Shown one piece after another: positions 10,108-29,455 of a stretch of DNA of 58,437 nt. Positions within the stretch are counted from its first letter, which is position 1; every line of letters starts with the position of its first letter. The translations under genes were made by a program, and so were the position numbers. A model generated the notes under the pieces. It saw only the letters and a program-made list of their open reading frames with translations, was not told where the DNA came from and did no database searches. This DNA is from Sulfuricaulis sp. (GTDB taxonomy: Bacteria > Pseudomonadota > Gammaproteobacteria > Acidiferrobacterales > Sulfurifustaceae), in contig NZ_JANLGY010000024.1 of NCBI RefSeq assembly GCF_024653915.1, positions 1 to 58,437 of the forward strand. Reading direction: 5' to 3'.

Positions 10108-10310
10108 GGGAACCTCTAAAAATCGCTTCTCATGTAGGTTGGGTCAAGCCGCGTCAGCGGCGGACCCAACACAATTTCGCCCGGAGCGAAATTGGGCGCA
10201 CACAGTGCGCCCGAAGGGCGAGCCACAGGGATGTGGCGAGTCAAAATCATATTGTTCGGCGGGTTTCGCTTCGCTCAACCCACCCTACACTTGAATTATT
10301 AGAGGTTCCC
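10108..10310. repeat. 203-bp MITE-like palindromic element, copy 1
   Basis: The element is bounded by terminal inverted repeats GGGAACCTCTAAAAA and TTATTAGAGGTTCCC. Just inside lies a second inverted pair (TGTAGGTTGGGT and ACCCACCCTACA). The interior is a chain of small palindromes: AATTTCGC/GCGAAATT, GCGCAC/GTGCGC, GCCC/GGGC, GCCACA/TGTGGC. A copy with about seven mismatches occurs at 28850-29052. It encodes no protein, so it would need a transposase in trans. It fills the gap between the convergent cyclase and pyrD genes. Confidence 0.85.
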
Positions 10311-27496: not shown

Positions 27497-28750
<1,254 letters not shown>

Positions 28751-28763
28751 CTAATGTAATCTT

Positions 28764-29186
28764 TCAGAACGCGGACGAACGCAGACATTTAAGGAACCTC
28801 TGATTTATTAATTTCTGACGCTAAGTCGCAAAGACGCAAAGATTATTCAGAGAACCTCTAAAAATCGCTTCTCATGTAGGTTGGGTCAAGCCGCGCCAGC
28901 GGCGGACCCAACACAATTTCGCCTGGAGCGAAATTGTGCGCACACAGTGCGCCCGAAGGGCGAGCCACAAGGATGTGGCGAGTCAAAATCATACTGTTCG
29001 GCGGGTTTCGCTTCGCTCAACCCACCCTACATTTGAATTATTAGAGGTTCCCTTCAGTTATTTTTCCGAGTTTTTCTTTGCGCCTTCGCGTCTTTGCGTC
29101 AAATAATCATATTTAATCAGACCTTCCTTAATCTGATAGACGCGGATTCTTCGAAATGGACTGCTTGATCTGCGTTTATCTGCAGC
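28764..29186. repeat. Nested palindromic insertion complex
   Basis: The gap between icd and cspD is layered. Outermost are GAACGCGGACGAACGCAGAC (28767-28786) and its loose inverse near 29138-29185. Next come TTTAAGGAACCTCTGATTTA (from 28788) against TTTAATCAGACCTTCCTTAA (29112-29131). Then hairpin arms of CGCAAAGA tandem repeats (28817-28841 and 29076-29100). At the centre is a complete 203-bp MITE-like copy. The order implies successive insertions into pre-existing palindromes. Confidence 0.7.
28850..29052. repeat. 203-bp MITE-like palindromic element, copy 2
   Basis: Same length, ends and interior as the element at 10108-10310, in the same orientation, with about seven single-base differences. 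One end reads GAGAACCTCTAAAAA instead of GGGAACC; the other is a perfect TTATTAGAGGTTCCC. It sits in the loop of the CGCAAAGA-arm hairpin. Confidence 0.85.
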
Positions 29187-29191
29187 CCCGG

Positions 29192-29219
29192 AAAAAACAA
29201 ACCCGGCACATGGCCGGGT
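29192..29219 (-). terminator. Rho-independent terminator of cspD
   Basis: On the minus strand ACCCGGC (29213-29219 complement) pairs with GCCGGGT around a 5-nt loop and is followed by TTGTTTTTT, a textbook intrinsic terminator 27 bp after the cspD stop. Confidence 0.85.
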
Positions 29220-29245
29220 CGCAAAACTTCAAACGGTAGTAACGA

Positions 29246-29455
29246 TTACTTGGATAGGGAACGTATGTGGGAAGCTTGGGGGCCCTTGGGACCTTCCTGA
29301 ACTTCAAACTCGACCTGCTGACCCTCTTTGAGGGTCTTGTACCCTTCCATTTCTATTGCAGAATAATGCGCGAAGACATCATCGCCGCCATCTGTGGGTG
29401 TAATGAATCCATAACCCTTGCTGGCGTTAAACCACTTCACGGTACCTAGCGTCAT
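29246..29455 (-). CDS. cspD: Cold-shock domain protein, CspD-like
   Basis: A 69-residue single CSD protein binding single-stranded nucleic acid. RNP1 is KGYGFI and RNP2 is DVFAHYSAI. The [20 protein letters not shown] end resembles CspD of Pseudomonas, which also lies between icd and clpS. In E. coli CspD inhibits replication in stationary phase; whether this one does is unknown. AGGAGGGG lies 5 nt upstream of the start. It is divergent from clpS. Confidence 0.88.

Follow-up and report, generated by a model that had tools for sequence, protein, structure and literature searches.

How did palindromes of different sequence come to lie one inside another within a single intergenic gap? The question is raised by the window, a 58,437-nucleotide stretch of DNA from Sulfuricaulis sp. 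that forms contig C24 of a 2.73-Mb genome, in which a gap of 420 bp separates icd (PF00180) from a convergent cold-shock gene (PF00313, 29246-29455) that lies on the opposite strand and is followed by clpS (PF02617). The best matches to this icd in the named collection, where records very near the window may have been excluded, came, at 88% identity, from two gammaproteobacterial MAGs, of which one is labelled Sulfuricaulis sp. (L231). A preliminary description had seen concentric inverted-repeat layers in the gap, laid down by successive insertion, and had suggested that hairpin loops were the preferred sites of that insertion. The concentric arms are indeed present. The single-stranded fold of positions 28764-29186 has an energy of -89.9 kcal/mol, whereas shuffled versions average -53.2 (z -7.5; 0 of 100 shuffles equalled it), and the nest proved even to be four deep, with the layers A, F1, D and E following one another from the outside in.

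28764-28788, unstranded: left part of layer A, an old palindromic repeat (AACGCGGACGAACGCAGACA) that follows the icd stop codon; an F1-free version in the sister species G008 (L060) was aligned across the insertion point
28789-28792, unstranded: left copy of the F1 target-site duplication (TSD), TTAA, from scripted excision
28793-29127, plus strand: F1, MITE-like, with a CGCAAAG-type core between GGAACCTCTGATTTA ends, from scripted excision
28816-28841, unstranded: left arm of the F1 core, TGACGCTAAGTCGCAAAGACGCAAAG, one of its two inverted-repeat arms
28846-28849, unstranded: left copy of the D TSD, TTCA, from scripted excision
28850-29052, plus strand: D, a 203-bp MITE-like element in the F1 loop with ends GAGAACCTCTAA and TTAGAGGTTCCC, from scripted excision and other copies in the same genome
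28876-29030, unstranded: core of D, GTAG to CTAC, REPIN-like, two inverted hairpins with E between them, from the sequence and its folds; the GTAG tag is as in PMC3733652
28914-28985, plus strand: E, a 72-bp three-hairpin module running from CAATTT to GAGTCA, from excision against E-less D (fold z -4.8)
29053-29056, unstranded: right copy of the D TSD, TTCA, from scripted excision
29076-29101, unstranded: right arm of the F1 core, CTTTGCGCCTTCGCGTCTTTGCGTCA, the second inverted-repeat arm
29128-29131, unstranded: right copy of the F1 TSD, TTAA, from scripted excision
29132-29186, unstranded: right part of layer A, TCTGATAGACGCGG to GATCTGCGTTTATCTGC, from its arms and the alignment to G008
10108-10310 (C24:10110), plus strand: a second copy of D with E on the same contig, flanked by TATT and TCTT, from an own-genome match

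Both D and F1 have the properties of MITEs, being short elements with terminal inverted repeats (TIRs) that occur in several copies and are bounded by 4-bp TSDs. The preliminary description had assigned AAGGAACCTCTGATT ends and CGCAAAGA arms to two layers; both are present, but in a single element, F1, whose length is 128 bp without D and a single TSD copy. It had also recognized a complete 203-bp MITE-like copy, which we recovered as D with TTCA on either side, but had overlooked the 72-bp layer E inside it. At the outermost step, F1 entered A where, in the form kept in G008, the short hairpin CAGATA-TTT-TATCTG has its tip. Cores related to that of F1 occur at 12 further loci in the same genome, and among the resulting 13 CGCAAAG/CGCAGAG-type cores, own-genome matches placed GGAACCTCTGAT ends on both sides of two and on one side of another; these end calls allowed at most three mismatches, except at the borderline locus L015, and the table of cores is motif-based and rough. 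From their sequences, the ends and the core arms of F1 thus look like separable modules. A further nesting partner was seen in two F1-type cores (L006, G000:C25:13247, and L015, G000:C20:164734), the right arms of which carry an element of about 50 bp beginning GCTGTACAGGAAGTACGAATGTCGCG.

The whole block could, in principle, be one repeat family that moves or recombines as a unit, and the joint occurrence of D and E at three loci of the genome is what such a unit would look like. However, among 40 scored own-genome candidates, the full 423 bp matched itself alone while its parts occurred separately, and the sister species G008 has A without F1. We consider a single mobile unit extremely improbable.

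Comparison of the orthologous icd gaps, which the preliminary description had proposed as a check on successive insertion, did uncover forms with fewer layers. For each of the eight relatives within the genus we inspected the DNA 3' of icd, and in none (0/8) did F1 lie directly downstream of that gene. In G002, G004, G005 and G007 the gap is short and bare, with less than 30 bp to the next hairpin; in G006 it holds a different palindrome, of the AGGATT type; and in G001 and G003 another gene lies 3' of icd. G008 retains A, which aligns to the A of the window without gaps across the F1 insertion point. The G008 gap (L060) additionally shows private insertions next to A and within it: the icd stop codon is followed directly by another kind of palindromic element, bounded by TAGAACCTATCTCA, and the right arm of A contains a further palindromic block.

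Emptier forms of the inner layers are found as well. F1-type cores without D occur in the source genome, and D without E was found at two loci there (C14:33126 and C4:31579) and also in G008, G006 and G009. When E is removed from the window's D, the remainder is identical at 129/131 positions to the E-less copy of G008 (L099) and at 126/132, 117/131, 122/131 and 126/131 to four other E-less copies. Given that D and E stand together at three own-genome loci (the nest itself, C24:10110 and C1:3944), and that the latter two copies match the window's at 94 and 95%, we conclude that E entered D before the composite copies spread. The entry of D-type shells into the loops of F1-type cores likewise happened more than once: in addition to the window (L001, TSD TTCA), it is seen in G008 (L099, TTAT) and, with a different core in the shell, in another genus (L195 in G009, TTAA), and since the three TSDs differ, these were separate events. 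Because such earlier states persist in the genome and its relatives, the order of insertion and the choice of site can here be measured and need not be guessed. Two other composites were noted along the way: G007 carries another stack made of different elements (L139), and at L103 (G005:C1:811272) a GTAG-type core, with a left hairpin that contains a CCCTCTCCC palindrome, sits in another type of ends (GGAAGCTATCTCA-like).

Our preferred reading, which we hold with high confidence, is that the 420 bp were left by palindromic elements, unrelated and non-autonomous, that inserted one after another. A would already have been in place before the source species and its sister G008 split. F1, a MITE with GGAACCTCTGAT ends, would then have inserted into a TTAA within A and duplicated it. 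In a separate event, E would have entered some D locus, between the two hairpins of D, and copies of the composite would subsequently have reached three or more places in the genome, one of those copies going into a TTCA of the AT-rich loop of F1. The TIRs and 4-bp TSDs of D and F1 make DDE-type transposition their probable mode of movement, and the F1-type TSDs would fit the YTAR of IS5. E may have arrived by another route, single-stranded and hairpin-guided in the manner of Y1/HUH enzymes, as suggested by its A|A joint, its lack of a clear TSD and its frequency in other palindromic repeats.

An alternative to this reading is that the layers serve a function, as a stacked terminator or RNA element maintained by selection between the convergent icd and cold-shock genes. 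Such a role would fit a block that folds very well and that lies where hairpins can stop transcription. Yet none of the eight relatives in the genus has F1 or its contents 3' of icd, the 420-bp block has no match in Rfam at gathering scores, and the one terminator-like site in 28700-29300 falls at 29200-29220, beyond the nest, a count that does not exceed chance expectation. We therefore regard a selected function for the nest as very unlikely. A search of plasmids revealed no relative of either the block or E.

If the nest was built by successive insertion, what steered the insertions into the loops? The transposases of F1 and D could actively prefer hairpin loops, whether cruciform-extruded or single-stranded, which is what the preliminary description had supposed, and the repeated entry of D-type shells into F1-type loops (three separate insertions in two genera), together with the position of F1 at a hairpin tip of A in its G008 form, is consistent with such a preference. 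To look beyond the window, we surveyed shells of this type in several genomes of the family and kept 55 of 64 candidates (79-285 bp, with terminal inverted repeats), nine having been dropped by eye for mispaired ends. Since a TSD with at most one mismatch was a condition of listing, the survey is not an independent test of the TSDs. In the end class GGGAACCTCTAA (33 kept) the TSDs are AT-rich, and in the F1-type end class GGAACCTCTGA a manual count found YTAR, the TSD of the IS5 group, on both sides in 15/22, on one side in 3/22 and on neither in 4/22, the window's F1 having TTAA. The targets of the 55 insertions are thus AT-rich 4-mers, YTAR or TTNA-like. By motif, the same ends enclose GTAG cores in 15 elements, CCCTCTCC in 13, CGCAGAG in 10, GCCGGAAT in 6, CGCAAAG in 5, CGTTCG in 4, and CGCGAAG and CGCCAAG in 1 each.

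We rebuilt the pre-insertion site of each of the 55 insertions and compared it with controls that were matched by target motif and distance, although not confined strictly to intergenic DNA. The sites were not clearly more hairpin-enclosed than matched sites nearby: enclosing base pairs averaged 7.6, compared with 6.4 in near controls (n=358, p=0.17) and 6.9 in far controls (n=405, p=0.34). Long stems gave a mixed picture. Stems of at least 13 were in excess over target-matched, mostly more distant controls (5/55 vs 4/381, p=0.002), but the excess was not clear against nearby controls (5/55 vs 16/439, p=0.07), nor when the window's site was removed (4/54 vs 16/416, p=0.19). With stems of at least 15, the comparison with nearby controls gave p=0.03 when the window's site was included (4/55 vs 8/439) and p=0.12 when this site of discovery was left out (3/54 vs 8/416). 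Moreover, in L107 of G008, D sits in an outer arm junction of F1 and not in its loop. An order-level search of 57 genomes yielded shell sites outside the family only in G039, G043, G045 and G029, so few that it offers no independent replication of the shell test. One of these genomes contains a coreless, 35-bp palindrome consisting of D-type ends only (L321, G029:C47:6213-6247).

Another explanation for the loops lies in the sequence of F1 itself. Of the 15 positions in F1 at which a D-type target 4-mer starts, four belong to the loop and the other 11 to the outer AT junctions; one of these 4-mers reaches into the right arm at its outer end, but none falls wholly within a stem. Given that the stems hold no complete target, sequence alone steers insertions off the stems, and this preference is enough to explain the nesting. 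Any loop preference of F1/D-type elements is at best weak, and we think it unlikely that their transposases seek out loops as such. Under our reading of successive insertion, D and F1 would end up in hairpin loops since these, unlike the stems, contain AT-rich target 4-mers, and perhaps also since landing in an old selfish repeat does no harm.

No autonomous partner of D or F1 appeared in the TIR lists, which used exact or 1-mismatch patterns. A lone inverted TIR pair at the distance expected of an IS (G016:C38:34761/35598) turned out to be two complete short elements lying side by side, and by eye it held no transposase ORF. PF05598, the sole transposase family searched, was found at nine loci in 5 of 20 family genomes; these loci showed scattered 2-mismatch matches and no convincing D or F1 ends, and neither they nor the TIR lists provided a transposase acting on GGAACCTCT ends. 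A RAYT was also considered as the mover of the D core, which consists of two inverted, GTAG-tagged hairpins as a REPIN does (28876-29030; also in the fold of the E-less L099), the two-hairpin fold being less clear in the L005 copy of D. However, the GTAG core flanked none of the eight Y1 loci that we read by eye, of 20 fetched, and the flanking repeats recognized at those eight were GGGGTCAG-like or others. At L166, L167, L162 and L160, RAYT-like Y1 genes are flanked by inverted repeats of the AAGGGGTCAG or AAGGGGACGCTACCC type, which resemble the GGGGWSAS TIRs described in the available portion of PMC3733652 and not GTAG palindromes.

Insertion into REP-type palindromes is itself known. According to the part of PMC1525189 available to us, ISPsy8, ISRm22, IS1397 and IS621 target REPs or palindromic units, and ISPsy8 and ISRm22 insert at the symmetry axis of the palindrome. 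The window likewise has mobile elements within short palindromic repeats; those cases, however, as that part presents them, concern full insertion sequences with a strict sequence target, whereas the nest consists of non-autonomous palindromes in palindromes, four deep, with MITE-like layers on AT-rich 4-mers. The accessible text of PMC3733652 describes GTAG-15 dimers in long palindromes of A. variabilis, GTAG-23 elements in small palindromes of T. roseum and CGTC-1 dimers in 41-bp palindromes of H. neapolitanus, and states that target palindromes free of REPs were not found in A. variabilis or H. neapolitanus. As far as that text goes, its REPs show one level of nesting, while the window shows four, with emptier forms and TSDs. 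REPINs, in the excerpt of PMC3116915, resemble the D core in having GTAG and CTAC with two inverted hairpins, although the D core differs in being wrapped in transposon-type TIRs with 4-bp TSDs, and the Y1 genes that we examined are flanked by other repeats. With IS5-group MITEs, for which the available portion of PMC10359306 gives YTAR as the TSD of IS5, the F1-type elements share mostly YTAR TSDs and the form of a short TIR element, but no matching transposase or IS was found for them. Among the matches listed, no title or abstract start described a multi-level stack of palindromes, most subscription literature being outside the scope of the search, and a literature look-up of GTAGGTTGGGT and CCATCCCTGGC gave seemingly unrelated titles among the matches listed. 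The locus is therefore an instructive variant of a known process, in its depth and in its ordered series of emptier forms. Bacterial intergenic repeats are usually catalogued as separate families, and here they can be seen to stack.

The part most worth following is the host preference of E, of which we met no earlier description in the literature compared. E matches were present in 8 of the 9 genomes of the genus, and 38 of 54 raw alignments, in seven genus genomes, were insertion sites with clean ends; the 16 that we dropped had poor ends or were tandem or partial copies, and included L376, sited in an AATCCTG repeat. A stem of at least 13 spanned the site in 11/38 cases compared with 6/374 controls (p=8e-9), the controls here too being drawn from more than strictly intergenic DNA. 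When sites were grouped by flank, which merged only L097/L341 and L358/L361, the excess held against nearby controls (10/36 events vs 15/415, p=4e-6), and further merging by judgement (L001/L002, L107/L115, L027/L369 and L348/L360) left 9/32, or 8/31 without the composite of the window (p=5e-5). At 14 of these 32 joints, an arm motif belonging to a known palindromic repeat was recognized by eye (CGCAAAG in five, AATCCTG in three, the GTAG core in three, CGCCAAG in two and GTGACTTTT in one), eight of the 14 with a spanning stem of at least 13 and six, including four of the CGCAAAG type, without one within 90 bases. E is thus clearly biased to palindromic repeats within the genus. Among the layers of the nest, E is the only one with a clear bias of this kind; it lies mostly in arms or between hairpins, and occupies a tip, that of the right hairpin of D, in L102, L107 and L115. 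Two cases that look alike can therefore be told apart, MITE-like layers that can enter hairpin loops by way of AT-rich targets and a module that favors palindromic hosts in its genus, and the long-standing problem of site choice by REP-like elements becomes testable within one genus.

The bias is established for this genus only. In a class-level sample of 185 genomes, E-like DNA occurred in 18 outside the genus (20 including G000 and G005), and one of the eight copies examined there had a spanning stem of at least 13. Structurally, E has three hairpins and variable ends (GAGTCA, GCATCA, CGTCA or CCACA), and it departs from CGTC-tagged REPs, in which a conserved CGTC, TGTC or CCTC tag stands beside one hairpin of 8-9 bp. 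IS200/IS605-type elements insert without a TSD next to a fixed short target; E joins its surroundings at A|A, and in D, in recG and in a 5S-derived piece no more than a single A is duplicated. For the latter two, the empty forms were reconstructed by eye from homologous sequence, and no enzyme was identified for E. We tentatively suggest that E may be an undescribed family of mobile three-hairpin elements that targets host palindromes, CGCAAAG, CGCCAAG, AATCCTG and GTAG alike, without target duplication, the palindromes serving as landing pads, perhaps as hairpins on lagging-strand single-stranded DNA. If this is true, repeats would be a preferred habitat of other repeats. Alternatively, E could persist only where it is harmless, in which case survival and not targeting would account for its hosts; the copy in frame within recG (L012, G000:C6:79670-79747), a gene identified by its RecG domains PF17191 and PF19833, weighs somewhat against this, and the 715-codon frame there remains open. 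In its place within a reading frame, E resembles the Rickettsia palindromic elements and other intragenic REPs covered in the available part of PMC3733652, and it differs from them in its three hairpins and in lacking a conserved CGTC tag. The 5S-derived piece (L010:207-474, on G000:C25) is a partial repeat of the 3' end of 5S rRNA, seen by eye, that carries E and lies downstream of a complete 5S rRNA match.
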